Positions 24,898 to 39,079 of a DNA stretch of 50,935 nucleotides are shown piece by piece. Each line of letters starts with the position of its first letter. Position 1 is the stretch's first letter. The DNA comes from Acetobacter sp. DsW_063. Its GTDB lineage: Bacteria > Pseudomonadota > Alphaproteobacteria > Acetobacterales > Acetobacteraceae. The translations under genes were made by a program, and so were the position numbers. The stretch is taken from positions 1 to 50,935 of the forward strand of contig NZ_JOPL01000070.1 in assembly GCF_002153745.1 (NCBI RefSeq), in the 5' to 3' direction. The notes under the pieces were generated by a model. That model saw nothing but the letters and a program-made list of their open reading frames with translations. It searched no databases and had not been told where the DNA came from.

Positions 24898-26424
24898 ATG
24901 ATGCAACCCCGCGTCCTCATAGCTTCTTCCGCGGTTCTCGCCGTTGTTTTGCTTGGCGGCGGCGGAGCAGCCTGGGTATGGGCGCAGCGTGTTGCGGACG
25001 CCCGGCTGGACGCTGCTCTGGCGCAGTTTCGCACGCAACTGCCCCCCGGGAGCGAGTTGACTTACCGGCAGGCCACGGGACTGCCTCTCGGGCATGGCGC
25101 GCGATTGAAGGATGTCACACTCAGGGAAGGGGGGGGGATTTTCACCGCGTCCACGCTGGAGGCGCTCGGCGTTTCCGCGCCTGACGCTGGAACGAAAGCG
25201 CCGCCGCGATTCGATCATCTGATCGCTTACGACGGGCGACTGAAGGCGCCGTCTCTGGAAGTCATGTTCAAGCGCCTTGCGGTCGACCAGTTGCAGACGC
25301 CGATGCAGGATGAGTCGTTGGAGGAGCTGATTTTCGGGCATGGGGAGTTGTCCGAGTTGTCGATAAAGCCCGCCGGGGTGCTGGCTGACTTCGCTATCAA
25401 GGCTGCGTCGATCGACAATTTTGGCGTTGGTAAGACATCGCGGCTGGATATCGCCGACTTCGTATTCCACGGATACGCGACGCCCGCGCGTCAGATCACG
25501 TTCGCGCATCTCGCAGTGGATGGCCAGGATATCGCGTCGCGCGTCAATGGCGGCCTCGGCGCCAGACTTCCGCCCCACGAGGGCGACAGCGGCCTGCGTC
25601 TGGACGACCTGAAGCTGGACGGAGAAGCAGACGGCGTCCCGGGTAAAATGCAGGCGTTTCTTTCATTGAAACGGTTGGTCGAGCACGCAAGGACAAACGG
25701 CCTGAAGAGCAACGCCAGGGTGACGGTCGATCACCTGCTGATCTGGCCGTCGGCGCCCCATTTCGAGATTCTGAAGGAACTGGGCTATTCGTCGCTGGAC
25801 GCTTCGATCGCTGCGAACGTGCTTATCGACAGTCGTGCGCGTACGGCGAACGTCAAGAATTTCGACCTGACCGCGCCGGGGGCCGGGCGCCTTACTATCA
25901 GTGAAGACCTGAGCGAGATGGATATGCCGAGCGTCCTCGACCTTGGGGGCGCAGGCGTGACAGGCGCGAAGGTTAACCGTCTTGATATTGGCTGGCGCGA
26001 CGAGGGGCTGGTGAATCGGGCGATCACTCGATCGGCCGTGGCTCAGGGCGTCGATCCGGACGCCTATCTCTCGGCGCTGAAGCGTTCGTTGGCCCCAGCC
26101 GGGGCTGAGCCGGACAGTATGGGTGCGCAGTTGGCTCAATACCTGCAGTCGCCGGACAAGGGAACGCTGCGGATATCGCTGGCGCCGCCTCAGCCGTTGC
26201 CGCTGATCGCAGTCATTGCTGCGCTGCCGATGGCGCTTTCGTCCGGCGGGTCCTCCGAGTTGGTTCAATCCATGGGACTCATGGTTCACGCGCCCACAGG
26301 TAGCGGTAAGGGGGAAAAGGCGCCGGACGCGACGATGGGCGGCGATGGCGACGCGGCCGACGCCACGGACGAGGTTCCGCCCGATGCGCTTTCCGCACCG
26401 TCCAAGGCGGCGCCGCGTCCATGA
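24898..26424 (+). CDS. membrane-anchored envelope protein of unknown function
   Basis: A 508-residue protein with one N-terminal hydrophobic segment (RVLIASSAVLAVVLLGGGGA), probably an uncleaved anchor. It is followed by a large domain with many short amphipathic strands and repeated LxxLxxxG-type units, and a disordered acidic/proline tail. The arrangement recalls AsmA-like or DUF2125/DUF945-type periplasmic proteins, but I cannot assign one. The stop overlaps the next gene by 4 nt (ATGA), so the two are co-translated. Confidence 0.65.
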   Translation: MMQPRVLIASSAVLAVVLLGGGGAAWVWAQRVADARLDAALAQFRTQLPPGSELTYRQATGLPLGHGARLKDVTLREGGGIFTASTLEALGVSAPDAGTKAPPRFDHLIAYDGRLKAPSLEVMFKRLAVDQLQTPMQDESLEELIFGHGELSELSIKPAGVLADFAIKAASIDNFGVGKTSRLDIADFVFHGYATPARQITFAHLAVDGQDIASRVNGGLGARLPPHEGDSGLRLDDLKLDGEADGVPGKMQAFLSLKRLVEHARTNGLKSNARVTVDHLLIWPSAPHFEILKELGYSSLDASIAANVLIDSRARTANVKNFDLTAPGAGRLTISEDLSEMDMPSVLDLGGAGVTGAKVNRLDIGWRDEGLVNRAITRSAVAQGVDPDAYLSALKRSLAPAGAEPDSMGAQLAQYLQSPDKGTLRISLAPPQPLPLIAVIAALPMALSSGGSSELVQSMGLMVHAPTGSGKGEKAPDATMGGDGDAADATDEVPPDALSAPSKAAPRP

Positions 26425-27314
26425 ACGGAGGAGCGGTTCATGTCATCGGCGCGGGCGGGCGTTCTGGCGCGGCGCTATGTAAGGCGCTGCTCGCGCAGGG
26501 GCGAGCCGTTGTGCCCGTGGTCCGGGACGACGAGCGCTATCGGCGCGGGTTAGCGCGCGCGGGCGTGGCCCCGGCGGGTGAGGGCGTGCTGCGAGAGGCT
26601 CGGTTCGCGGATCTCGAAGCGTCTCTTCCGCCGTTGCGCCGTGCGCTTGCCGATGCGACGACTGTCGTTTGCACCGCGCATGCGCGTAATGTTCCGGTCG
26701 TTCTTTCCTGCATGCCTGAGCGTGCGCAACTGGTGTGTCTTGGCAGCACGCGGAAGTTCACCCGCTGGCCTGATGCTCATGGCGATGGGGTGTTGCGCGG
26801 TGAACGAGCACTGCTGGAGTCTGGCCGTCCCGGTGTCATCCTGCACCCGACGATGATCTATGGAGCAGAAGGCGAGAACAACGTGCAGCGTCTCGCCGCG
26901 CTCTTGCGGCTTTTGCCTGTTGTGCCGCTTCCTGCTGGCGGGCGAGCATTGGTGCAGCCGATTCATCAGAGTGACGTCACGGCGAGCGTTCTGGCGGCGA
27001 TCGACATCGACTGGCGCGGGCCGAAAGCCATCGTGATCGCGGGCGCCGCGCCTGTTTCCTATCGCGACTTCGTCCGGATGGTGGCGGACGCGGCGGGCGT
27101 CCGGCGTCGACCAGTGCTGTCCGTGCCCGCTGCGCCTCTGATCGCCCTGGCAGGCGTGACGCGGGCAATTCCCGGTGCGCCGGATATCGGCGGAGCCGAA
27201 GTCCGAAGGCTGCTTGAAGATAAGGCGTTCAACGTCACGGAGATGCGCGAGCGTTTGGGCGTCACGCCGCTGGCGCTGCAGGAGGGGCTGGAGCGCCTGT
27301 TTGGTGGTCCGTGA
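26421..27314 (+). CDS. NAD(P)-binding protein, NDUFA9/NmrA-like atypical SDR
   Basis: A 297-residue Rossmann protein. The dinucleotide loop is VIGAGGRSG (residues 8-16). The Tyr-Lys catalytic pair of classical SDRs is absent, but HPTMIYG sits in the usual place, as in the complex-I NDUFA9 / NmrA-like atypical group. A C-terminal half (VQPIHQSDVTASV, FVRMVADAAG) resembles the epimerase substrate domain. It may sense or bind NAD(P)H or act as an assembly factor. It is coupled by an ATGA overlap to the upstream envelope protein. Confidence 0.75.
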   Translation: MNGGAVHVIGAGGRSGAALCKALLAQGRAVVPVVRDDERYRRGLARAGVAPAGEGVLREARFADLEASLPPLRRALADATTVVCTAHARNVPVVLSCMPERAQLVCLGSTRKFTRWPDAHGDGVLRGERALLESGRPGVILHPTMIYGAEGENNVQRLAALLRLLPVVPLPAGGRALVQPIHQSDVTASVLAAIDIDWRGPKAIVIAGAAPVSYRDFVRMVADAAGVRRRPVLSVPAAPLIALAGVTRAIPGAPDIGGAEVRRLLEDKAFNVTEMRERLGVTPLALQEGLERLFGGP

Positions 27315-27688: not shown

Positions 27689-29317
27689 TCACAACGTCTC
27701 GTGCGTGATGCGCCCTCCCACGATGGTCAGGACGCTCTGAAGTGAAGGGAGGTCGTCGGGATCAACTGTGAACGGGTTCGCGGAAAGCGCCGTAAGGTCG
27801 GCGTAGGCGCCCTCGACTATCCGCCCCTCATCCCGGTTGCGTCCCGCGGCGTAGGCCGCGCCTTCGGTATAGGCGTGAAACGCTTCCGGGAATGTTATCG
27901 CCTGCCGTGTCACCCACCCGGCGTCGGCGGGCGCTCCGAGCGGACGACGCAGCACTGCCTTACGGATGCCCTGCTTCGGATCAAGCGGCACTATGGGCCA
28001 GTCGGTGCCAAATGCGAGCCTGGCCCCCGTATCCAGAAGGGCGCGCATCGGAAAGGCGTTTTGCAGGCGTTGCGCTCCGACGCGAGCTTCCCACACACCT
28101 TCCATGCCCATCCAGACGTCGGATGGCGCGATCATGACAGGCTGCATGCTCGCGATGGCGCCGATGCGAGAAAAGCGATCAATATCATTCTGGTAGGGTA
28201 ACTCGACGTGCTCTACGCGCGGCCGCAGACGATGCGATAGCGGCCCGGCGGCTTCAATGGCGTCCAGAGAAAGGGCGATGGCGCCGGGACCGATGGCGTG
28301 GGTCCATGTGGTGAAGCCTGCTTCCATGCCGCGACGGACGGCGTCGATATAGGGTTCTTTCTCCCACAGCAGTGAGCCGGTCAGATCCGGTCGATCAGCA
28401 TAGCCATCCGGCATGGATCCGGTATGGGATTCAAGCACGCCGTCGAGGAAGAATTTCAGCCCGTCGATGCGGAGCATATCCGTGTCATAGGCTGCGCGCA
28501 GCGCAACTGCGTCGCGCAGTCTCGCTTCCGCCATTGAGGGCGGCGCGATTTCCGTCATCATGCCAATCCGGATAGGGAGTTTTCCGGACAACTCCAGATC
28601 GTGCAGCATGGGCAGGAGCGATTCGTCGAAGGCTGCGCTCTGCATCCGGGTCACGCCGCAACGCGCCGCTTCCTGAAACGCTAAATCGAGGCCGCGTCGC
28701 CGATCCTGTTCATTTGCAGCGGGCATGTGGCGGCGGACCAGATCAACGGCGTGCTCCTTGAGCCAGCCCGAGGGGGAACCGTCAGGGCGGCGGACGATCT
28801 CGCCGTTCGGCGGATCGGGAGTCTCGGCGGTGATTCCCGCAATTTCGAGAGCGCGGCTGTTGGCCCAGGCCGCGTGCGCCATGGCGGAAACAAGCAGGAC
28901 CGGCCGGTTGGGAGAGACCGCGTCCAGCATCGCACGGTCGAAGACACCGCCGGGCAGGTCAGGGTAGCCGTAGCTCCATTCGAGCCCGTATATCCAGGGC
29001 GCGTCCGGAGTGGCGGCGGCGCGCGCCGCAACACGTTCCACGATCTCTTGCATGCTACGGGCGTCGCGAAGACCTACCGCAGAGAGGTATTCCGCCGCCA
29101 TTAACACATGAACGTGCACGTCAATGAAGCCGGGCATCAGGAACATGCCGTCCAGATTTCGAATAGTCGTCTCAGGGCGGCATAAGGCGCGGATCTCTTC
29201 CGTCGGGCCGATATGGACGATGCGTCCATTGGATATCCCAACGGCAGCTCCGATCAGGGGCAGGGTGTGCGATCCTGTATGAACCGTGGCGTTGAGAAGG
29301 GCCAGGTCGAGCGTCAT
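27689..29317 (-). CDS. YtcJ-type metal-dependent amidohydrolase
   Basis: A cytosolic TIM-barrel hydrolase of 542 residues from the amidohydrolase-3 group. Metal ligands His68 and His70 lie in FIDVHVH. The bridging lysine is in DGLKFFLDG, two further histidines in WTHAIG and RVEHVE, and the catalytic Asp in FGTDWPI. Members cleave C-N bonds in N-acyl, formamide or cyclic amide compounds; the substrate cannot be read from the sequence. GGGGAAC precedes the ATG. It is divergent from the ArgE-like gene and opens the accessory region with the lyase at its far end. Confidence 0.85.
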   Translation of the reverse strand: MTLDLALLNATVHTGSHTLPLIGAAVGISNGRIVHIGPTEEIRALCRPETTIRNLDGMFLMPGFIDVHVHVLMAAEYLSAVGLRDARSMQEIVERVAARAAATPDAPWIYGLEWSYGYPDLPGGVFDRAMLDAVSPNRPVLLVSAMAHAAWANSRALEIAGITAETPDPPNGEIVRRPDGSPSGWLKEHAVDLVRRHMPAANEQDRRRGLDLAFQEAARCGVTRMQSAAFDESLLPMLHDLELSGKLPIRIGMMTEIAPPSMAEARLRDAVALRAAYDTDMLRIDGLKFFLDGVLESHTGSMPDGYADRPDLTGSLLWEKEPYIDAVRRGMEAGFTTWTHAIGPGAIALSLDAIEAAGPLSHRLRPRVEHVELPYQNDIDRFSRIGAIASMQPVMIAPSDVWMGMEGVWEARVGAQRLQNAFPMRALLDTGARLAFGTDWPIVPLDPKQGIRKAVLRRPLGAPADAGWVTRQAITFPEAFHAYTEGAAYAAGRNRDEGRIVEGAYADLTALSANPFTVDPDDLPSLQSVLTIVGGRITHETL

Positions 29318-29787
29318 GCCTGTGTTCCCCGAAGATAAAGCTTAAGCCCCTTGCGTGCGTCGCGCCCGCTCTCCGGGGTCTGCGTGAGCCTGAGCGATCC
29401 GCATTTCAGGCTCGTATGTGGCCTTGGTTGTATAAGCTTATCGTGACAGCGCCAATCGGGCCGTAATGGGCGACGTCGTCAGAGTGGCGAGCGCGCCAAA
29501 CATTTGGACGATGCGGAAATGCCCTTGCCTGATCCGGATCGTTTGCTGTTATAGAAATGAAGATCGGAACCTGCTCGTTTTCCGCGATTTAAAGCCTTGA
29601 ACAAGGATTGATCGTTTCGTAGGCGTTGGCGCTTATTTTGGCGGCGTTGGCTAGGCGCAGGCGTGTCTCCGCCTCGGAAGTTTCGATGCGTGGGCAATGG
29701 GGGTTGCGTGCATTCTGCCCCGTGCGGCTATGGCCGCACCGGGCGTCGGGGCTCCGGCGCGCCAATGATGTCATGTGAGGCGGCGCG
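29318..29787. promoter_or_regulatory. divergent promoter region of amidohydrolase and ArgE-like genes
   Basis: This 470-base spacer holds both promoters. Two AAGCTT-centred dyads lie about 95 bp apart (near 29337 and 29431, the latter inside ATAAGCTTAT). They may be regulator sites for the nearby LysR protein, though this is weak. No gene was seen. Confidence 0.35.
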
Positions 29788-30957
29788 ATGGAGACGGAGC
29801 ACTCGGATCGGAACACAGCGGCAGGAACGGTGACGTTGCTGGAACGTCTCGTCGCGTTTCCGACTGTATGTCGTCACGATAATCTGGAATTGATCGACTG
29901 GCTCGCCGCCACGCTGACGGAGGCGGGCGCGCGCGTGGAAATCGTTCCGGGGGACGAACCGGGGCGCGCGGGGCTTATCGCAAGCGTCGGTCCTGATCGT
30001 CCGGATGGCCTCGTGTTGTCTGCTCATAGCGACGTGGTGCCCGTCGAAGGGCAGCCATGGACCACCGATCCGTTCTGTCTGACAGAGGCCGACGGCAAGT
30101 TGTTCGGACGCGGCTCAAGCGACATGAAAGGGTTTTTAGCCTGCGCCGTCACGGCGATCCGCGACGCGGCGGCGCGACCGTCCTTGGCTCGGCCGCTGCA
30201 TCTCGCCGTTTCCTATGATGAAGAAATCGGTTGTGTCGGCGTTCATTCGTTGTTGCGACGATTGCGGGAGCGGGAGTTCGCCGCCGCCGGGTGCGTGGTT
30301 GGCGAACCGACCGGGTTAAGGGTCGCTGTCGCGCACAAGGGGAAAGTCGCGGCGCGGATTACGTGTCATGGACAGGCTGCGCATTCGGCCAATCCTGCAC
30401 TGGGTCGCAACGCAATTCTTATGGCTTCGCACATGATTTCCGAAATCGAGGCGATACAGGCGGATATGATCGCGAACGGAAGGCAGGACGCCATGTTCGA
30501 GACGCCGCACAACACCGCGCAGGTTGGGCTTATATCCGGCGGTGTGGCGCTGAATATCGTGCCCGATTTGTGTAACGTTGACTTCGAGATGCGGCTTTTG
30601 CCCGGAGACGCATCAGACGTCTGGATCGAGCGTCTGCGGCGGCAGGCAGAGCGCGTTCAGTGCGAGTTTCCGGGCGGTAGAATCGAGATCGAGGTCATTA
30701 ACGCATACCCGGGCCTCAAGGCCGAGACGGGCTCTGCGACAGGCGCGCTTGTGCTGGCCGCTGCAGGACGTAATGACGTCGTAACTGTGGGATTCGGGAC
30801 GGAAGCCGGGCTGTTTCAGGAAAAACTTGGTCTGGACACGATCATATGTGGTCCGGGGTCGATAGATCGTGCGCACAAGGCGGACGAATACGTCACGCGT
30901 GGCGAACTGGCCGGGTGCGAGAGGTTCCTGTCGAAGCTTGTTGATGCGCTTGTCTGA
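29788..30957 (+). CDS. argE: ArgE-type N-acyl-amino-acid deacylase (acetylornithine deacetylase family, M20)
   Basis: A di-zinc M20 metallohydrolase of 389 residues that removes an N-acyl group from an amino acid. Metal ligands are His80 (SAHSD), Asp112 (GSSDMKG), Glu146 (DEE), Glu173 (GEPT) and a His near the C-terminus (RAHKADEY). Asp82 and Glu145 are the usual catalytic pair. The dimerisation domain carries the HSANPALGRNA block. Its setting among amidohydrolase, DUF1028, RidA and LysR genes suggests a catabolic N-acyl-amino-acid substrate rather than, or in addition to, the arginine pathway. TGAGG precedes the ATG. It faces the LysR gene with 10 nt between stops. Confidence 0.85.
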   Translation: METEHSDRNTAAGTVTLLERLVAFPTVCRHDNLELIDWLAATLTEAGARVEIVPGDEPGRAGLIASVGPDRPDGLVLSAHSDVVPVEGQPWTTDPFCLTEADGKLFGRGSSDMKGFLACAVTAIRDAAARPSLARPLHLAVSYDEEIGCVGVHSLLRRLREREFAAAGCVVGEPTGLRVAVAHKGKVAARITCHGQAAHSANPALGRNAILMASHMISEIEAIQADMIANGRQDAMFETPHNTAQVGLISGGVALNIVPDLCNVDFEMRLLPGDASDVWIERLRRQAERVQCEFPGGRIEIEVINAYPGLKAETGSATGALVLAAAGRNDVVTVGFGTEAGLFQEKLGLDTIICGPGSIDRAHKADEYVTRGELAGCERFLSKLVDALV

Positions 30958-30967
30958 AAGAAACGCG

Positions 30968-31885
30968 TCAGTCGCTGCCAGGCAATTTTTTTCCAGCGAG
31001 CAGCTTGCGGCACACATCGAGAACAGCGCGGCAACGGGCGGTCCGTCGCACTCCGGAGATCGTCGCTATGCCGTAGCGCAGCGGGCGGACGTCGTCTTTC
31101 AGGGCGAGGTAGGCCAGCGCTCTCCCGTCCAGCGCCGCCTTGTTGCGTGGTCGGGCGTTCGCCAGTCCGTAACCGTCGCCGCGCGCTACAAGGCTGCGAA
31201 CAACGTCGATACTGCCGAAACGTCCGGCGATTTTCGGCGACAGAGTCTGCTGACTGAACAGGCCGAGGAAGTAGTCACGCGACAGAGGCAGGTCGAGAAG
31301 GAGAAAGGGCTCGTCGATCAGTTCAGACAGCGAAACGGATTTGCGGCGCGCAAGCCTGTGTGTGGTCGACACCATGACAAAGGGGGGCAGGGTGGCCAGC
31401 GGTTCGAACTGAACGTCCGGCGGGGTGTTGAGATCGTAGGCGAGGCATGCGGAAATTTCCCCTCGTCGCAGACGGTCCACAAGTTCGGCATGGTGCCCGG
31501 CGCTGACGAGAAGCCGTGCGGCCGGATGATGGTTTTCAAACGACTGCAACAGTTCCGGGACGATCAGCGAGTACAGCGTCGTCATGCAGCCGATTTCGAC
31601 CTGACCATTGATCCGGTTGGACAGACCAGCTGCTTCGGCGTCGAATTCCTGTGCATGAAGCAGAAGGCTTTGCGCTTCCCGAAGAAAGCTCTGGCCTTCC
31701 GGCGTCAACGACAATCCGGCGGCGTGATGGCGGATAAAAAGTGGAATGTTGAAAGCCGCTTCCAGTTGGGAAATGGCTGCGGATATGGACGGCTGCGAAA
31801 TGTTGACCTGTCGCGAGGCTGCTGTGATCGAGCCAGTTTCAGCAGCCGCCACGAAATATTCAATTTGTCTCAGGGTGAACCGCAT
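30968..31885 (-). CDS. LysR-family transcriptional regulator
   Basis: A DNA-binding regulator of 305 residues. The N-terminal winged HTH is MRFTLRQIEYFVAAAETGSI then SQPSISAAISQLE, followed by a periplasmic-binding-like effector domain. The frame extends 34 codons upstream, but CGGAG lies 7 nt before the Met at 31885, so that start is chosen. It is divergent from the DUF1028 gene with only 60 bp between starts, the typical LysR arrangement, so it probably controls DUF1028 and perhaps the flanking catabolic genes in response to their substrate. Confidence 0.92.
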   Translation of the reverse strand: MRFTLRQIEYFVAAAETGSITAASRQVNISQPSISAAISQLEAAFNIPLFIRHHAAGLSLTPEGQSFLREAQSLLLHAQEFDAEAAGLSNRINGQVEIGCMTTLYSLIVPELLQSFENHHPAARLLVSAGHHAELVDRLRRGEISACLAYDLNTPPDVQFEPLATLPPFVMVSTTHRLARRKSVSLSELIDEPFLLLDLPLSRDYFLGLFSQQTLSPKIAGRFGSIDVVRSLVARGDGYGLANARPRNKAALDGRALAYLALKDDVRPLRYGIATISGVRRTARCRAVLDVCRKLLAGKKLPGSD

Positions 31886-31945
31886 GGAGTTGCTCCGAAC
31901 GGTCCATCGGGCATGCCGACACCCGTCAATAGAGAGGTATAGAGA

Positions 31946-32623
31946 ATGACGTTTTCCATTGTCGCCCGATGTGAGCGTACGGGTCAATTCGGCGTCGCCG
32001 TCGTTTCGTCATCGCCGGCGGTCGCGGCGCGATGCGCTTTCGCTCGCGCGGGAGTTGGCGCCGTGACGACCCAGAACGTCACCGATCCACGCCTGGGGCC
32101 GAAAGCTCTCGATTTTATCGCAGAGGGATTGTCGGCGGCCGCTGCCCGCGATCGGGTGTCTGCGGCGGCGACCTATGCTGAATTCAGGCAGGTGACCATC
32201 GTGGATGGAAATGGCGAGGGGGCGATATGGTCGGGGGGGCGGACCCTTGGCGTGAACGCGGAAGCTCTGGCGTCTAACGTCGTGTCCGCAGGTAACCTTT
32301 TGGCGAATGACGGCGTCCCGGCAGCGATCGTTGCGGCCTTTGTCGCGTCCGACCCTGAACAGGAGTTGGCTGAAAGGGTTCTACTTGCTTTGGAGGCTGG
32401 CTTGGCTGCGGGCGGCGAAGCAGGCCCCGTGCACTCGGCGGGATTGCAGATCGTCGAGGGGGAGGTGTGGCCGTTGGTGGACTTGCGGATCGACTGGTCA
32501 GAGGCGCCTGTCGCTGATCTGCGCGGCTTGTGGGAGCTGTGGCGACCGCAAATGCGCGATTATCTTAGTCGCGCGCTGAATCCGCTGGGCGCCCCGTCCT
32601 ATGGGGTGCCCGGCGACGAATGA
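31946..32623 (+). CDS. DUF1028 family protein (Ntn-hydrolase-like)
   Basis: A 225-residue protein with the DUF1028 signature: MTFSIVARCERTGQFGVAVVSSSPAVAARC, then VGAVTTQNVTDP and a central IVDGNGEGAIWSG. The fold is related to N-terminal-nucleophile hydrolases and the proteasome beta subunit. In other bacteria the family often sits next to RidA, ArgE-like and amidohydrolase genes, as here, but no reaction is firmly assigned. It is divergent from LysR and followed by RidA about 280 nt later. Confidence 0.88.
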   Translation: MTFSIVARCERTGQFGVAVVSSSPAVAARCAFARAGVGAVTTQNVTDPRLGPKALDFIAEGLSAAAARDRVSAAATYAEFRQVTIVDGNGEGAIWSGGRTLGVNAEALASNVVSAGNLLANDGVPAAIVAAFVASDPEQELAERVLLALEAGLAAGGEAGPVHSAGLQIVEGEVWPLVDLRIDWSEAPVADLRGLWELWRPQMRDYLSRALNPLGAPSYGVPGDE

Positions 32624-32902
32624 ATGAATTTTGTAAAAAATTGTTATTTCGAAATTTACATCGAATTTTCTGATGATAGGCATCGGTAGTCCTTGCTTGG
32701 TCAGAACGATGCGCAACCCTACTGTTCGGATGTTCCGGGCGTCACGCCCGCGCGTTGGCGGCGTATCGCCGGGACACCGTGGCTGTGACGGAGGCGGTGG
32801 TTACTGCTTCGTCAGGCTCGCTTGCCGGGCTGCGTCTGAGACTGTTCAGGTTTAGGCAAGGCGTTCCTGATGAGAGCGTCACTGTCAGGGAAAGACAAGA
32901 GT

Positions 32903-33310
32903 ATGATTCACAAACGCATCCGTCCGTTCAATACGAAAGCCACCTACCCGGAGCAGAGCCTTGATAACGATCTCTGCCAGGCGGTGGTGGCTGGCAAGAC
33001 CATCTATCTGCGCGGGCAGGTTCCTCAGGATCTTGATACGCGCGAAAATGTCGCGGTGGGCGATCCGGAGGGGCAGGCGGAGAAGGTGATGCAGAATATC
33101 GAGTTGCTGCTGCGCGAATGTGGAGCGGAACTCGCGCATATCTGCAAGGTGACAGTGTATCTGACCGATATCCGCCATCGCGAAACGACCTACCGTGTGC
33201 TTGGCAAGTGGATGAAGGGCGTATTTCCGGTTTTCACTGGGCTCGTCGTCGTGGCTCTTGCTCGGCCAGAATGGTTGATTGAGGTGGACGTAATTGCCGA
33301 GCTTCCATAA
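32903..33310 (+). CDS. RidA/YjgF-family protein
   Basis: A 135-residue RidA-family protein. Relatives hydrolyse reactive enamines and imines (such as 2-aminoacrylate) to keto acids and ammonia. IYLRGQVPQD, AEKVMQNIELLLRECGA, KVTVYLTDI and the terminal VVVALARPEWLIEVDVIAELP are visible; the Arg in ALARPEW fits the substrate-carboxylate arginine. Starts at 32870 and 32903 are both possible; AAGG precedes the first, GGGAAAG the second. In this cluster it could clear an imine formed by deamination. Confidence 0.88.
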   Translation: MIHKRIRPFNTKATYPEQSLDNDLCQAVVAGKTIYLRGQVPQDLDTRENVAVGDPEGQAEKVMQNIELLLRECGAELAHICKVTVYLTDIRHRETTYRVLGKWMKGVFPVFTGLVVVALARPEWLIEVDVIAELP

Positions 33311-33667
33311 TCGCGAACGTAGTATTGTATATACAATGCGATGAGTGATTTGTGGTGATCGTCGGCGTTTATCCCATCCAATTTGAGTTCAATTGCGTGG
33401 GCTGATTTCCGGCTCAAAAAGGCGAGTATGGCCCGGCGTCGTCGGCTGCTGAACGTCCCGCGTCTCGCGGGGATTTTGGTGAGTGTTGTAAGATCGCAAC
33501 ATTCAATTTTTGTTCCGAAAATGTTTTGAATTTGGCTTGTCGCCCACATTCCGTATATGCAACCATAATCAATAATGGTTAGCGTCTTTCGGGGCGACGT
33601 TTGCGACGCCGCATGCGGCAGGACATAACTGGCGCATTGGGGCGTCGTGGTGAGGAGTTGCGGCGAG
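33311..33667. promoter_or_regulatory. upstream region of the third TonB receptor
   Basis: A 357-base AT-richer spacer. Besides the palindrome at 33324 it contains AACCAT (33561-33566) facing ATGGTT (33575-33580) and a 12-bp palindrome GCCGCATGCGGC at 33608-33619. A minus-strand 188-codon frame (33190-33756) crosses it but has no domain and runs into RidA and the receptor. Confidence 0.4.
33324..33337. promoter_or_regulatory. 14-bp perfect palindrome, probable operator
   Basis: ATTGTATATACAAT lies 14 bp after the RidA stop and well ahead of the TonB receptor gene. TTGTAT-n-ATACAA resembles GntR/FadR-type operators. Its regulator is not in the window as far as I can see. Confidence 0.45.
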
Positions 33668-36121
33668 ATGATCAAACACACGACATGCCTTACCGGCTGC
33701 GTGGCGGTTTCAGCGATTTTGGCGATCGCGCTCGCAGGGACGGCGGGAGCCGCCACACGAGCCCATCATCGCGGGTCATCAGGCGCTGGCGCGGCGGCGA
33801 GTTCAGTAACTTCTCCGCGCAATGGGGCTGCAGCGGCGCCGGTAAAGCGGGCGCCGACCGTTTTTAACGCGGCCGGAACAGAGGCCGTTGCGGCCGTTGG
33901 GCACAGGCATGTCTCGGGCGGGGGCATGATGCGCGCGGAAACTGCGGCGAAGGCGGTCAGCACGGTTACGCACGAATATATCGCGAAGCAGTCTCCCGCA
34001 TCCAATGCTCTGGCGCTGATTCAAATGGCCCCGGGCGCGAACGTAGCCATGGGCGATCCGTTCGGCGTCAGCGATGAATCGATGATCACCGTGCGCGGCA
34101 TGAACCAGCAGCAGATCGGATACACCTTCGAAGGTGCGCCGATGAACGATCCCGACGATTACACGCCGAATTCCTCGGAATGGATCGATTCCGAAAACAT
34201 GGACAATGTGCAGTTGCAGCAGGGGTCGGGCGAGTTGAACTCTCCCCTCACGAACTCTGCTGGCGGCATCATGGCCGTGAATATGCGCAATCCGAAATAC
34301 GAGCATGGCGGCGAACTCGACGTCAGCTACGGCACGCATCAGCTTAATCGACAGTTCATCCGTTATGACACCGGTGAAATCGGCCATAGCGGCGTTCGTG
34401 CGTTCGCATCCTACTCCAATCTTTCCGGCAAGGCGTGGCGTGGTCCCGGGCGAAACAACCGACGTCACATGGATTTCAAAGCGATCAAGGAGTGGGGCAA
34501 CAGTTTCATTTCTGTCGCTGGATCCTACAACAATGAGAACACGGCCTACTATCCGACCTACGATTCCGTCAGTCAGTGGAATCAGGAGGGATTGAGCCAC
34601 AATTTCTCGGGCACGTATAACGTTAACGACGCCAGCTACAACGGTTTGAACAGCTACTATAAGTTCTATCAGACCAACTGGGCTGACATTCTGATCAGCG
34701 CACCGATGCATTTCGAGGCGAGCCCGAAGCTGACTTTCGACGTTTCGCCGTATGTCTATCACGGAAGCGGCGCTTACCCGTTCGGCGCCGGCAGCCTTTC
34801 GAACGGCGCAGGCGATTACGGTGGTCTGCTGGCGATCAATGGCTCCAACTACAACGGAACCGGCACGACTGGCGCGTCGATCGCGACCGGCAACGCTGCT
34901 ACCTATAGCACCGCGCAAGGCGAAGCCATTAACGCAATGTATAACTGGCTCGGCACCGAAGGGTATGCTGGCCTTAATTCGTCGGTGAAATACAAGACCA
35001 AACACAACGAGCTGACGTTCGGTTGGTGGTTCGGTTACACCGATATGCAGGCTCTCGAGCCTTTCTCCGCGCTGACTGCGACCGGTCAGGCCGCCAACTT
35101 CGATGGTCGCTACAATCTGAAGCTGACAGACGGCACGCTTTTGAGCGAGCAGTCGTACCACACGATCACCATGACCAATATGCTCTATATCGGCGATCAG
35201 GTGACGCTCCTCAATGATCGCCTGCATATTTCGGCAGGTTTCAAGGAAGCGATGATCTCGCGTGACGGCACGTTCGGGCAGCCTGTCGAGGGGTATTACA
35301 AGGTGGGCTACAATACGGCAGAGCCATTGCCGCGGATGTCGATCGATTACCACATCAATCCGAATGTCATGGTTTTCGCCAGCGTCAACACCAACTTTCG
35401 CACGCCGGTCGGAACGGCGATGTATAACGCTTACGACAATCCCTGGAATGGATCGCAGATCACCACAGGCAATACAAAGCTGAAAAACGAATACAGCATC
35501 GTCGAAGAAGTCGGCGCGCGGTATTCCGGCAGCCTTGGAAACGCATCCATCACCGGGTTCAATTACAACTTCACCAACCATCAGGTGAACGCCTATAACG
35601 GCGCGAACCCCCTCCCTGTCGCGATGAACGTCGGCGGCATGACGATCCGAGGCGTGGACGCCCAAATGGGCCTGCGTCCATGGCATCACTTCTCGCCTTA
35701 CGCCTCCGGTGAGTACCTCTACGCTACGACCGATAACAACATTCCCGACTCTGACGGAACTTATCTGAACACAAAGGGAAAGATCGCGCCGTCTGCGCCG
35801 CGTTGGCAGGCGTCCGTCGCGCTCAACTATGACGACGGCACGATGTTCGGCAGTGTGACGCTTCGCTATGTCGACAAGCAATACAGCACCTACACGAATG
35901 ACGAGCAGATCAAGGGTTACAAGCAGGTCGACATGATGATCGGCGCGCGGATGAAGAAGATCGGGTTCATGAAGTCTCCTTCTATTCGTTTGAATATTAT
36001 CAATCTGGCCGATCACCATTATCTGTCGGGCGTGTATTCGCCGGGGACGACCGCTGGCACAGCGCAGCTTCTCGCTGCGCCAAATTTCGCCTGTCTGGCG
36101 ACCTTCAGCACTGGGTTCTGA
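33668..36121 (+). CDS. TonB-dependent receptor (GGGMMR-type)
   Basis: An outer-membrane receptor of 817 residues. GAGGAG about 10 nt upstream supports the ATG at 33668; the signal peptide ends near GTAGAA. An Ala/His-rich linker precedes the plug, which opens with SGGGMMRAET and continues through QMAPGANV, TVRGMNQQQIG, EGAPMND and NSAGGIMAVN. The barrel ends with STGF. It is a paralogue of the receptor at 15669-18116. The position before an MFS transporter and a lyase, 3' of RidA, suggests it brings the island's substrate across the outer membrane (inference). Confidence 0.9.
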   Translation: MIKHTTCLTGCVAVSAILAIALAGTAGAATRAHHRGSSGAGAAASSVTSPRNGAAAAPVKRAPTVFNAAGTEAVAAVGHRHVSGGGMMRAETAAKAVSTVTHEYIAKQSPASNALALIQMAPGANVAMGDPFGVSDESMITVRGMNQQQIGYTFEGAPMNDPDDYTPNSSEWIDSENMDNVQLQQGSGELNSPLTNSAGGIMAVNMRNPKYEHGGELDVSYGTHQLNRQFIRYDTGEIGHSGVRAFASYSNLSGKAWRGPGRNNRRHMDFKAIKEWGNSFISVAGSYNNENTAYYPTYDSVSQWNQEGLSHNFSGTYNVNDASYNGLNSYYKFYQTNWADILISAPMHFEASPKLTFDVSPYVYHGSGAYPFGAGSLSNGAGDYGGLLAINGSNYNGTGTTGASIATGNAATYSTAQGEAINAMYNWLGTEGYAGLNSSVKYKTKHNELTFGWWFGYTDMQALEPFSALTATGQAANFDGRYNLKLTDGTLLSEQSYHTITMTNMLYIGDQVTLLNDRLHISAGFKEAMISRDGTFGQPVEGYYKVGYNTAEPLPRMSIDYHINPNVMVFASVNTNFRTPVGTAMYNAYDNPWNGSQITTGNTKLKNEYSIVEEVGARYSGSLGNASITGFNYNFTNHQVNAYNGANPLPVAMNVGGMTIRGVDAQMGLRPWHHFSPYASGEYLYATTDNNIPDSDGTYLNTKGKIAPSAPRWQASVALNYDDGTMFGSVTLRYVDKQYSTYTNDEQIKGYKQVDMMIGARMKKIGFMKSPSIRLNIINLADHHYLSGVYSPGTTAGTAQLLAAPNFACLATFSTGF

Positions 36122-36214: not shown

Positions 36215-37420
36215 ATGACGATGGATAGTTATGCGGAGTTTCTCTCTGAGACCTCTGTAAACGCTTCGGCTGACTCCCCGGCGGGGGCTGTTTTGCCGCT
36301 GCCGGTCTTGATTGGCGCCTGTATCGGCTCAGGCACGGCGCATCTCGTCTCCTCGGCGATGCCGTTTCAGGTCGACGCGTTGATGACGGGCGTCAATTTT
36401 TCAGCGACGGACTCAGGATGGTTCGGTTTTTTTGAGATCATCGCTCTGTCGCTGACGATGATCGCCCTGTCGCGCCTGCATCGCCCACTCCCGCCGGTCG
36501 TGACCGCCGTAGCCGGAGCGGCCCTTGGCGCAATCGCGAACATACTGCTCTTCAGTGTTGCGCGCTCGACGCTCGCCTGCTGGGGGTGCGCAATTCTGAT
36601 CGGCGTCGCATCAGGATCTTTGGCGCGCTCTTATATTCAGGCAGTCTCCGCGTCGCGCAATGTCGATCGCGTGTATTCGATTGCTAGCGGCGGCGGCCTG
36701 ATCGTCATAGTCGGGGCGATATCGCTGGTGCCTCTGGCGACGCATCTATGCGGTCCTTTAGGGGCTTTTCTCGCTTTTTGCGCACCAATGCTGGTCGCAA
36801 CGCCGTTACTGCTGATGCTCCGCAAGGCCCCGCACGCGGCGGCGGCCCATGAACGCGCTCGGCTGCGTCTTAGCGCGGGCGGAGTGGCGCTGGTCGTCAT
36901 GTGGACACTGTCGTCGCTTGGTCAAAGTGTTGCATGGTCGTTCGCCGGGCGTGTCGGCGCCCATTTGGCGTTGAGTGAAAAATTCATCGTCACCCTGTCA
37001 TCTGTCGGAATCATCGCTGGCGTGCTTGGCAGTTTCGGCGGCGCCGTCATCGCGACGATGCTGCCGCGTTCCGTCGTGTTGCTTACCAGCCTGGTGGGCG
37101 TCGCGGCGGCTTGTTTCTTTTCCTGCGCAGCCTGGGGCCCATGGAGCTACGCCATAGCCATTACGGGATTCTGGGTGTTTTCGATGCTGTCTTACGCTTA
37201 TCTGCTGGGGAGCGCCGCCTCTCTTGATGACACCGGCAAGGCGGGGACCTTGTGCAGTGGCATGGACAGGCTTGGATTCGCTTTGGGCGCCCCGCTCGGC
37301 GGATTGGTCGTGGATCACGGCAGCTTTCTGACTCTGGCGCTGATGGCCGCCGTGGTTGCCGGACTTGCGATTCCGTTCTGCTATCCTGTGCTGCATCGAG
37401 AACTTCGCGCAGCCCTCTGA
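36215..37420 (+). CDS. MFS transporter
   Basis: An inner-membrane major-facilitator transporter of 401 residues with about 12 hydrophobic helices, starting around residue 27 after a polar N-terminus. A central basic loop (RKAPHAAAAHERARLR) separates the two halves. Classical sugar- or drug-subfamily signatures are not clear. It lies between the TonB receptor and the MIO-less lyase, all on the plus strand with 93 and 126 nt gaps, so it may move the same compound across the inner membrane. GGGAG precedes the ATG by about 10 nt. Confidence 0.85.
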   Translation: MTMDSYAEFLSETSVNASADSPAGAVLPLPVLIGACIGSGTAHLVSSAMPFQVDALMTGVNFSATDSGWFGFFEIIALSLTMIALSRLHRPLPPVVTAVAGAALGAIANILLFSVARSTLACWGCAILIGVASGSLARSYIQAVSASRNVDRVYSIASGGGLIVIVGAISLVPLATHLCGPLGAFLAFCAPMLVATPLLLMLRKAPHAAAAHERARLRLSAGGVALVVMWTLSSLGQSVAWSFAGRVGAHLALSEKFIVTLSSVGIIAGVLGSFGGAVIATMLPRSVVLLTSLVGVAAACFFSCAAWGPWSYAIAITGFWVFSMLSYAYLLGSAASLDDTGKAGTLCSGMDRLGFALGAPLGGLVVDHGSFLTLALMAAVVAGLAIPFCYPVLHRELRAAL

Positions 37421-37546: not shown

Positions 37547-39079
37547 ATGCCGCACACCCATGCATCGTCCGATGGCGTGATCGAACTGAGGGAAAGTCTG
37601 CGTTGGCGCGACGTCGCCGCGGTCGCAGAGGGAAAGCGCGTGATCCTTTCAGCGGCAGCGCTCGCACGCGTGACTGCCGGAGACGACCGCCGTCGCGCCA
37701 TCGTCGCCAGCGGCGACCGGGTTTATGGCGTCACGACAGGGGTCGGCGCGTTGTCCGAAGTCGTCGTCTCGCGGGAAGCTCAAAGCGCGCTGTCTCACAA
37801 CATCCTGCGTAGCCACGCCGTGGGCGTTGGCGCGCCACTGCCGCCTGTCGAAACGCGAGCGATCATGGTCGCTGCGGTCAATAATTTTGCGCACGGACGA
37901 TCAGGTGTCCGCCCCGTTGTCGTTGCGCAGATTCTCGACCTTCTGAACGCAGGCTGCACGCCGTCGGTCCCGAGAGACGGATCGGTCGGTTACCTGACCC
38001 ACATGGCGCATATCGCTCTCACACTGGTGGGGGAGGGGGCGGCTGTGTTGCCCGGCGAAGATCGGGAAACGGAGGGCGTCGCCGCGCTTGCGCGGATCGG
38101 CAGGGAACCGTTGTGCCTGGAGGCGAAGGAAGGGCTGTCGCTCGTCAACGGCACGCCATGCGCCACGGGGATGGGCGCGCTTCTGCTGGCGCGGCTGGAG
38201 CGGTGGCTCGACTGGGCGGACGCTATTGCGGCCCTGACATTCGAGTGTCTGGAAGGGCAGGACGTAATTTTTCGGTCTGAATCCACGACTTTGCGCGTGC
38301 GCCCCGGCATGGAACTTGTCGCCGCGCGCATGGCGAAGCTTCTGGAGGGTTCGGTGCGGATCGAGGCAGCCCGCGGCAAGCGCACACAAGATGCGCTCAG
38401 CTTACGGACCATTCCGCACCTTCATGGCGCAGTCAGGGACGTCTGGACGAATGCGGCGGATTGCGTGGATCGGGAACTGGCGAGCGTCACGGACAATCCG
38501 GCGCTTCTTGACGGCGCCGATGGACCGTTCGCCATGTCAGAGGCGCACGCGGTCAGTCCGGATATAGGACTGGCTTTTGATCAACTCGGCGTCGCTATTG
38601 CGGAACTGGGGATGATGTCGGAGCGTCGTCTTGATCGGATGCTCAACCCGCTGCTGAGTGGACTGCCCGCTTTTCTGGCGGGGGCGTCTGGTGCGGAATC
38701 AGGCTTCATGATCGCGCAGTACACGGCCTCTGCGCTTGTTTCGGCCAATCGTCGCGACGGACTCCCGGCCAGTCTGGACGGAGGCGTCACGTCGGCATTG
38801 CAGGAAGACATGCTGTGTCACGCAACCGCGGCCGTCATGAAAGCTCAGGCGATTCTCGATCGAACCGCGTTGATTCTGACGATCGAACTGCTAGCAGCGG
38901 CGCAGGCCTGCGACCTGGTCGGGTGTGCAGAGGCCTTGGCTCCGCGCACTCGTCTGATATTTGAGTTCGTTCGAAGCGGCGTCGCCCGGTATGCCGACGA
39001 CAGGCCGCTGGCCGGAGATATCGCCGGGATGAAAGCACGTCTCGGGGAGACGCCTGTGGCGACGATCGTCCCGGAGTGA
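37547..39079 (+). CDS. histidine/aromatic ammonia-lyase superfamily protein lacking the MIO tripeptide
   Basis: A 510-residue all-helical protein of the HAL/PAL/TAL fold. Family residues (HutH numbering in parentheses) are Tyr60 (Tyr53) in YGVTTGVG, His90 (His83) in LRSHAVGVG, Asn201 (Asn195) in LVNGT, Arg287 (Arg283) in QDALSLR and Glu420 (Glu414) in LQED. The active-site loop, normally GSVG-ASG-DLAPLAHM, reads GSVG-YLTHMAHI (145-156): the three residues that cyclise to MIO are missing without breaking the frame. HutH Tyr280 is Leu284. Ordinary ammonia elimination is therefore unlikely; an onium or other lyase activity, as in ergothionase, or a different reaction is possible. AAGGA precedes the ATG. 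Confidence 0.85.
   Translation: MPHTHASSDGVIELRESLRWRDVAAVAEGKRVILSAAALARVTAGDDRRRAIVASGDRVYGVTTGVGALSEVVVSREAQSALSHNILRSHAVGVGAPLPPVETRAIMVAAVNNFAHGRSGVRPVVVAQILDLLNAGCTPSVPRDGSVGYLTHMAHIALTLVGEGAAVLPGEDRETEGVAALARIGREPLCLEAKEGLSLVNGTPCATGMGALLLARLERWLDWADAIAALTFECLEGQDVIFRSESTTLRVRPGMELVAARMAKLLEGSVRIEAARGKRTQDALSLRTIPHLHGAVRDVWTNAADCVDRELASVTDNPALLDGADGPFAMSEAHAVSPDIGLAFDQLGVAIAELGMMSERRLDRMLNPLLSGLPAFLAGASGAESGFMIAQYTASALVSANRRDGLPASLDGGVTSALQEDMLCHATAAVMKAQAILDRTALILTIELLAAAQACDLVGCAEALAPRTRLIFEFVRSGVARYADDRPLAGDIAGMKARLGETPVATIVPE

Follow-up and report, generated by a model that had tools for sequence, protein, structure and literature searches.

A lyase gene of Acetobacter sp. DsW_063 encodes a member of the histidase superfamily that has lost the Ala-Ser-Gly triad from which the MIO group is formed. 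Judged from sequence and genomic context, the protein is most probably a MIO-free hercynine (histidine betaine) trimethylamine-lyase producing urocanate, a reading to which we assign a probability of roughly 57%. The gene lies in a stretch of 50,935 nucleotides, hereafter called the window, which corresponds to contig C16 of a 3.03-Mb assembly (G000) that is 69% complete. One protein of this genome shares 97% identity with a protein of Acetobacter sacchari, consistent with an acetic acid bacterium or a close relative. The relatives of the lyase form a clade of MIO-less lyases, referred to here by the loop motif GSxGY, that stands apart from ergothionase within the superfamily. We would give even odds to a broader proposal, namely that this clade is another MIO-free group besides ergothionase, with a Tyr standing in for the MIO loop and helping to cage a trimethylammonium group, that through it many Alpha-, Beta- and Gammaproteobacteria possess a so far undescribed branch of the hut pathway leading from hercynine to urocanate, and that it replaces HutH entirely in some acetic acid bacteria.

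In a profile search the encoded protein matched the full PF00221 family (Lyase_aromatic) with 450 bits over residues 18-476, and the reading frame listed in Table 1 thus bears out the HutH-superfamily identity given in a preliminary description of this DNA. The score against the HutH model TIGR01225, 407.6 bits, is below the equivalog cut-off of 539.15 and does not classify the protein as HutH. The active-site loop, GSVGYLTHMAHI, reads GSVG-Y-LTHMAHI, compared with GSVG-ASGD-LAPLAHM where the triad is present. The segment running from GSVG to the GEG that follows it comprises 20 residues, versus 23 in the HutH of the same genome; ASGD has given way to Y, with three residues fewer and the reading frame kept, as the preliminary description had claimed. 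The loop therefore lacks the triad characteristic of HutH and resembles ergothionase in this respect, and because Ala-Ser-Gly is missing no MIO is expected. Two further ASG strings, at residues 54-56 and 380-382, both fall outside the active-site loop, which contains none at any other position; in the alignment neither string is invariant among relatives, and the second is common to a few of them. A sequencing error or a pseudogene was considered and rejected, since the same loop is found in a 94% identical homologue and in all 119 other listed relatives. The identical loop of the close homologue in particular makes a sequencing error very unlikely.

Table 1. Features of the lyase locus and of the ergothioneine-utilization operon in the same genome (window coordinates unless a locus is named)
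Feature	Position	Strand	Remarks
Palindrome TTGTATATACAA, predicted HutC-type operator	33325..33336	.	Lies 311 bp ahead of the TonB start codon as listed
TonB-dependent outer-membrane receptor	33647..36121	+	First of the TonB-MFS-lyase run; Plug and beta-barrel Pfam domains
MFS transporter	36215..37420	+	Directly upstream of the lyase; MFS_1 31.4 bits, just below the Pfam cut-off of 33.4
MIO-less HutH/PAL-superfamily lyase (GSxGY clade)	37547..39079	+	510 aa, ATG start
Codons G145-S-V-G-Y149, shortened loop	37979..37993	+	Read from sequence; Y149 in place of HutH A142-S143-G144-D145
Leu284 codon, place of HutH Tyr280	38396..38398	+	L in 26/26 GSxGY rows
Tyr392 codon, candidate part of an aromatic cage	38720..38722	+	Y in 26/26 GSxGY rows
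Glu420 codon (HutH Glu414)	38804..38806	+	E in 71/71 rows
Complete ergothioneine-utilization (ert) operon	L086:6168-14456 (G000:C147)	.	Thiourocanate hydratase, thiohydantoin desulfurase, ErtE, ErtD, ergothionase-type lyase (CAD loop, L003), MFS transporter

The shortened loop is a property of a widespread clade. A search of 5.8 billion proteins recovered 4968 relatives among 7998 scored candidates, and all 120 that were listed read GSVGY without ASG in the loop. Scanning of genomes yielded at least 594 stretches encoding a relative; the best 80 of these were kept as loci, every one of which carries GS[VA]GY, and their hosts are Alpha-, Beta- and Gammaproteobacteria. Many proteins of the clade are labeled histidine ammonia-lyase or HAL/PAL/TAL family ammonia-lyase by NCBI and JGI. 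In a tree of 71 chosen rows, the GSxGY proteins form one group (support 100/100) and the ergothionase-like rows a separate one (100/98), with L003, a second PF00221 protein of the window genome whose best PDB match is ergothionase (6s7j), serving as a stand-in for 6s7j; some branches are long, and the rows cover GSxGY, HutH, other MIO-type and ergothionase-like proteins, with PAL/TAL and 6s7j outside the set.

Within a sample of 160 genomes from the organism's own family, GSxGY proteins with a PF00221 match were seen in two, the window genome and G162, a 282-bit match in G135 having been left out. Two PF00221 matches near 500 bits have ASG, and in five at 375-438 bits the loop is one residue short of the HutH length. 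Of the 29 fetched matches scoring above these (L088-L116), 26 have the MIO triad and the other three are unclassified. Loops one residue shorter than in HutH (GSVGAADL, GSVGASDL, GSIGAGDL and others) also occur in many PF00221 homologues of L003 (P0138-P0240), which indicates that MIO-less lyases of unassigned function are common. Three of these homologues (P0189, P0203 and P0235) have an additional cyclic-nucleotide-binding domain, PF00027. Two Acetobacteraceae lyases, at L118:6617-9175 (loop GSIGAGD) and L121:8764-11319 (loop GSVGEAD), each adjoin a 333-aa gene, and the products of these two genes have similar N-termini.

The remainder of the pocket has been selectively conserved. By alignment, residues Y60, H90, N201, Q281, L284, R287 and E420 of the window lyase correspond to positions 53, 83, 195, 277, 280, 283 and 414 of Pseudomonas putida HutH, whose numbering we take to be anchored on S143; PDB titles name Y280, F329 and D145 as HutH residues. 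In the 71-row alignment Y60, H90, N201, Q281, R287 and E420 are invariant in all 26 GSxGY rows, and the loop position of Y149 is Y in those 26 rows and A in all 16 HutH rows. The column of HutH Tyr280 holds Y in 21/21 MIO rows (including 16/16 HutH rows) and, among 24 ergothionase-like rows, L in 23 and V in one; with Leu284, the window lyase lacks the tyrosine of HutH. These results agree with the earlier statement that Tyr60, His90, Asn201, Arg287 and Glu420 stay in place while the Tyr280 position is Leu. The column of Tyr392 holds V in 16/16 HutH rows and K in 23/24 ergothionase-like rows, and this tyrosine is not unique to the GSxGY clade, as it is also found in 3/5 other MIO-type rows. 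Overall, the clade has kept residues on the carboxylate and imidazole sides of the substrate and changed those on the amine side.

HutH proteins (TIGR01225; P. putida HAL 1b8f, Thermoplasma acidophilum HAL 7tqr) share fold and length with the window lyase, the equivalents of Y53, H83, N195, Q277, R283 and E414, and the association with HutC and the hut pathway, but differ in having the ASG triad and MIO, a loop three residues longer that lacks the counterpart of Tyr149, Tyr280 instead of Leu284, and a score on the other side of the HutH cut-off. Tyrosine and phenylalanine ammonia-lyases and aminomutases (3kdy, 2o6y) also have the same fold, and the positions of Tyr60, Asn201 and Arg287 match in the 3kdy alignment; unlike the window lyase, however, these enzymes carry MIO, and 3kdy has Gln at the Glu420 position.

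Genomic context connects the clade with the hut genes. Neighboring genes were counted by tblastn with reference proteins over the 80 loci, requiring at least 33% identity over 55% of the reference. A HutC-like gene is present in 61 loci, and two representative HutC-like proteins score 301.5 and 267.5 bits, over the HutC equivalog cut-off of 220. Catabolic hut genes occur in 28 loci (HutF in 24, HutI in 24, HutU in 23, HutG in 17 and HutD in 15), and 69 have either a catabolic hut or a HutC-like gene within 10 kb, although the figures of 61/80 and 69/80 are not independent counts because related loci, such as those of one genus, share descent. Neither kind of gene was found in the stretch examined at the other 11 loci. 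Also common are genes for a polar-amino-acid ABC transporter (ATPase in 62 loci, permease in 60, substrate-binding protein in 60), with the ATPase gene directly upstream of the lyase gene on the same strand in 60/80. A true HutH is encoded near the lyase in 18 loci. Gene arrangements differ among Rhizobiaceae, Kaistia, Labrys, Nitrospirillum, Caballeronia/Trinickia and Gluconobacter; in the Caballeronia locus L025, for example, the lyase is followed by hutU-D-I-F-G. At three gammaproteobacterial loci (L018, L056 and L059), the lyase comes after a short conserved gene (about 130 aa), and no hut gene was found nearby.

In some acetic acid bacteria the lyase occupies the place of HutH itself. The cluster of Gluconobacter sp. 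Dm-62 (L076) has the order TonB, hutI, hutF, hutG, hutD, hutC, lyase, MFS, hutU, TonB. The Gluconobacter assembly G001 contains no protein over the HutH cut-off, the only matches being the GSxGY lyase (437.7 bits) and an ergothionase-type lyase (188.6 bits). From one TonB gene to hutI, the Gluconobacter cluster is repeated in G162, a genome 99% complete, with 56-94% identity gene by gene; there the GSxGY lyase is the sole PF00221 match, and a true HutH was not found in that genome. In G081, a congener of G162, hutU adjoins a true HutH with ASG. Thus, in Gluconobacter sp. Dm-62 and G162 the lyase takes the place of HutH in a complete hut cluster.

The neighbors of the lyase in the window resemble parts of these clusters. 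The window MFS protein is 48% identical over 364 aa to that of the Gluconobacter cluster, which is itself over the Pfam cut-off, and an MFS homologue adjoins the lyase in both Gluconobacter sp. Dm-62 and G162. Similarly, the window TonB receptor shares 37-38% identity with both TonB receptors bordering the Gluconobacter hut-lyase cluster. A search of the window ORFs at 23-42 kb revealed no hut gene, and the hut link of the window consists of one predicted operator together with the evidence from relatives. Elsewhere in the genome, hutG-F-I-C lie on contig C149 and hutU-hutH on C147, and a single HutC (272.7 bits) is over the cut-off. Further upstream in the window, positions 27689-33310 hold an apparent catabolic cluster (Amidohydro_3, M20 hydrolase, LysR regulator, DUF1028 and RidA), for which the Gluconobacter and G162 clusters showed no homologues. 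At 24898-27314 lie two neighboring ORFs (508 and 297 aa) that gave no significant Pfam match.

The predicted HutC-type operator upstream of the TonB-MFS-lyase run would make this run part of the hut regulon. The argument is based on the stricter published form, TTGTMTAKACAA, which is found at exactly two places in the window assembly, one being the window site and the other located 114 bp ahead of the hutU match of hutU-hutH; these two sites are a lower bound because the assembly is 69% complete. The reversed control of this pattern has no site in the same assembly. The window site fits the published HutC-subfamily consensus NyGTMTAKACNy (PMC4494728) and the published form TGTA-N2-TACA (PMC12977541). 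Both TTGTMTAKACAA sites of G162 lie within its hut-lyase cluster. In the 160 family genomes, 26 contain the pattern, with 33 sites versus 15 for the reversed control (hand count), so the pattern is enriched, yet single chance sites do arise; nine of the 33 are within 6 kb of hutU or hutH, one is the window site and 23 are others. Looser patterns are less discriminating. A loose palindrome occurs within 400 bp in only 6/61 of the HutC-like loci and 73 times in total over the 80 loci, moderately above the 47 of a simple shuffle, and TGTANNTACA is not enriched in the window genome (4 sites versus 18 for the reversed control). The choice of pattern was not blind, because the window site had been seen beforehand with a looser one, but the consensus and the sites at hutU, in Gluconobacter and in G162 are independent of that prior sighting.

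Taken together, the proximity to hut or HutC-like genes at 69/80 loci, the replacement of HutH and the shared HutC-type operators point to urocanate as the product. The substrate is probably other than histidine, since most carriers possess a normal HutH as well. The search of carrier genomes covered 40 of the 80 loci and, with L009 set aside, 39 genomes. A HutH over the cut-off is present in 37 of them, the exceptions being G001 and G033, in which HutH is in pieces, and a HutU match above 900 bits is present in 38, with two pieces in G033. In this last genome (Rhizobium; loci L066 and L145), the true HutH, HutU, ErtA and ErtD each match in pieces, perhaps through assembly frameshifts. On the simplest reading of these data, the product is urocanate and the substrate is a histidine altered solely in its amine. 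Loss of the MIO group, which activates the amine, fits a substrate whose amine already leaves well, and hercynine meets all of these conditions.

The proposed reaction would begin with hercynine (N-alpha-trimethyl-L-histidine), which the TonB receptor and the MFS protein may import. By analogy with HutH and TAL, Tyr60 would presumably act as the base, Arg287 and Asn201 would hold the carboxylate, and His90 and Glu420 would hold the imidazole. Tyr149 and Tyr392 might line a cage for the trimethylammonium group. Removal of the beta proton and expulsion of trimethylamine would yield urocanate, the quaternary amine probably leaving well enough without MIO, as for ergothionase. Urocanate could then enter the normal hut pathway through HutU, HutI, HutF and HutG.

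Ergothionase is itself a MIO-less member with the same fold (6s7j; PMC13405746). Like the GSxGY clade, ergothionase (Treponema denticola 6s7j/6s7q and related proteins) belongs to the superfamily, has HutH Tyr280 replaced and keeps the equivalent of Glu414, and its chemistry, the elimination of trimethylamine, is probably the same. The two differ in other respects. The ergothionase-type loop is one residue shorter than that of HutH and the GSxGY loop three shorter, the T. denticola loop (SSIGEGDITTLSHI, with SSIGEGD) being of another kind than GSVGY; 23/24 ergothionase-like rows have Lys at the position of Tyr392, and 20/24 have no Asn at that of Asn201. In the cases that were read, ergothionase-type lyases sit in ert rather than hut clusters. 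Among 39 PDB matches of the window lyase, 6s7j ranks 17th, with 137 bits versus 255.5 for a histidase.

The window genome carries an ergothionase-type lyase of its own. L003, with loop GSIGCADVGLMSHI, matches 6s7j with 185.9 bits, versus 135.9 for its next PDB match, and lies in a complete ert operon whose thiourocanate hydratase, thiohydantoin desulfurase, ErtD and ErtE are all over their NCBIfam cut-offs. Contig C147 carries both urocanase-type genes of the genome, one of them within this operon, and thiourocanate hydratase is absent from the window, in keeping with the earlier observation that no thiourocanate-degradation genes are visible there. Two window neighbors considered as ert genes were rejected: the M20 protein (29788-30957) reaches 459.5 bits with the acetylornithine deacetylase model (cut-off 412), and the amidohydrolase (27689-29317) is over no cut-off. 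Across the 80 loci, tblastn references for the ergothionase-type lyase and thiourocanate hydratase, the query set not including ErtD, ErtE or the desulfurase, were the best match nowhere. A thiourocanate-hydratase-like score was obtained in 13/39 carrier genomes, and in all eight of these that were fetched an ergothionase-type lyase lies beside the thiourocanate-hydratase-like gene and away from the GSxGY gene; the ergothionase-type lyases of two Burkholderia carriers have the T. denticola-like loop GSIGEADITILSHV. Given a genome with a true HutH and a complete ert operon with its own ergothionase-type lyase, the name ergothionase is unsupported for the window lyase, and ergothionase as its family is rejected in view of the separate clade and different loop. 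Of the preliminary reading, the idea of a betaine or onium substrate has held up and now appears likely, but the kinship with ergothionase has not, and the context ties the gene to the hut pathway and urocanate.

Several other functions can be weighed against this background. A divergent ergothionase, acting on ergothioneine or on an oxidized or methylated derivative such as ergothioneine sulfonate, would also work without MIO in the same fold, and Rhizobiaceae carry the GSxGY clade; a bacterial ergothioneine sulfonate pathway from Agrobacterium radiobacter is cited in PMC13405746. We regard this as improbable, since the clade and loop are separate, carriers have an ergothionase-type lyase of their own in ert clusters, and the partners of the GSxGY lyase are ordinary hut genes. 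The same pocket and hut context would also suit a lyase that converts another amine-modified imidazole amino acid, such as N,N-dimethylhistidine or a ring-methylated histidine betaine, into urocanate or a close analog. Directly downstream of the lyase in 19/80 loci is a gene resembling those of N-methyl amino-acid oxidases, which would be expected if methylated histidines are degraded and counts for the hercynine reading as well; its product, similar to the FAD amine oxidases that act on N-methyltryptophan or sarcosine, may demethylate N-methylated histidines, and the gene lies about 1.5 kb from the lyase start (L027, L034, L046 and others). A substrate of this other kind is unlikely. Trimethylamine is a better leaving group than tertiary or secondary amines, and a ring-methylated substrate would need an altered HutU, yet the partner in Gluconobacter is an ordinary HutU (967 bits, cut-off 375).

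The replacement of HutH in Gluconobacter would also be explained if the protein were a genuine histidine ammonia-lyase, deaminating L-histidine in the absence of MIO; the clade protein is the sole PF00221 protein found in Gluconobacter sp. Dm-62 and G162 that could start the hut pathway. This seems quite unlikely, given that it would be redundant with the normal HutH of 37/39 carriers, that MIO and Tyr280 were lost together, and that histidases without MIO are almost inactive. The missing active-site cofactor and the occurrence of a true HutH nearby in 18/80 loci might instead suggest a pseudoenzyme or regulatory subunit, for instance one forming mixed tetramers with HutH. That is highly improbable for a protein whose catalytic and substrate residues are invariant in 26/26 rows, which has its own transporter, and which occurs in hut clusters where HutH was not found.

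A hercynine trimethylamine-lyase would be of interest beyond this genome. Hercynine is described as an ergothioneine precursor made from histidine by fungi and bacteria (PMC7653990). In the open-access literature that was searched, neither a route of hercynine breakdown nor any account of a hercynine lyase or the GSxGY clade was found. Many sequences annotated as histidase probably are not, and if the hercynine reading is true, many histidine ammonia-lyase entries are misnamed. The same reading would provide a breakdown route for hercynine and a further bacterial source of trimethylamine. HutH, ergothionase and the GSxGY clade would then offer a natural comparison of three enzymes with one fold, from which it might be learned when MIO is dispensable.
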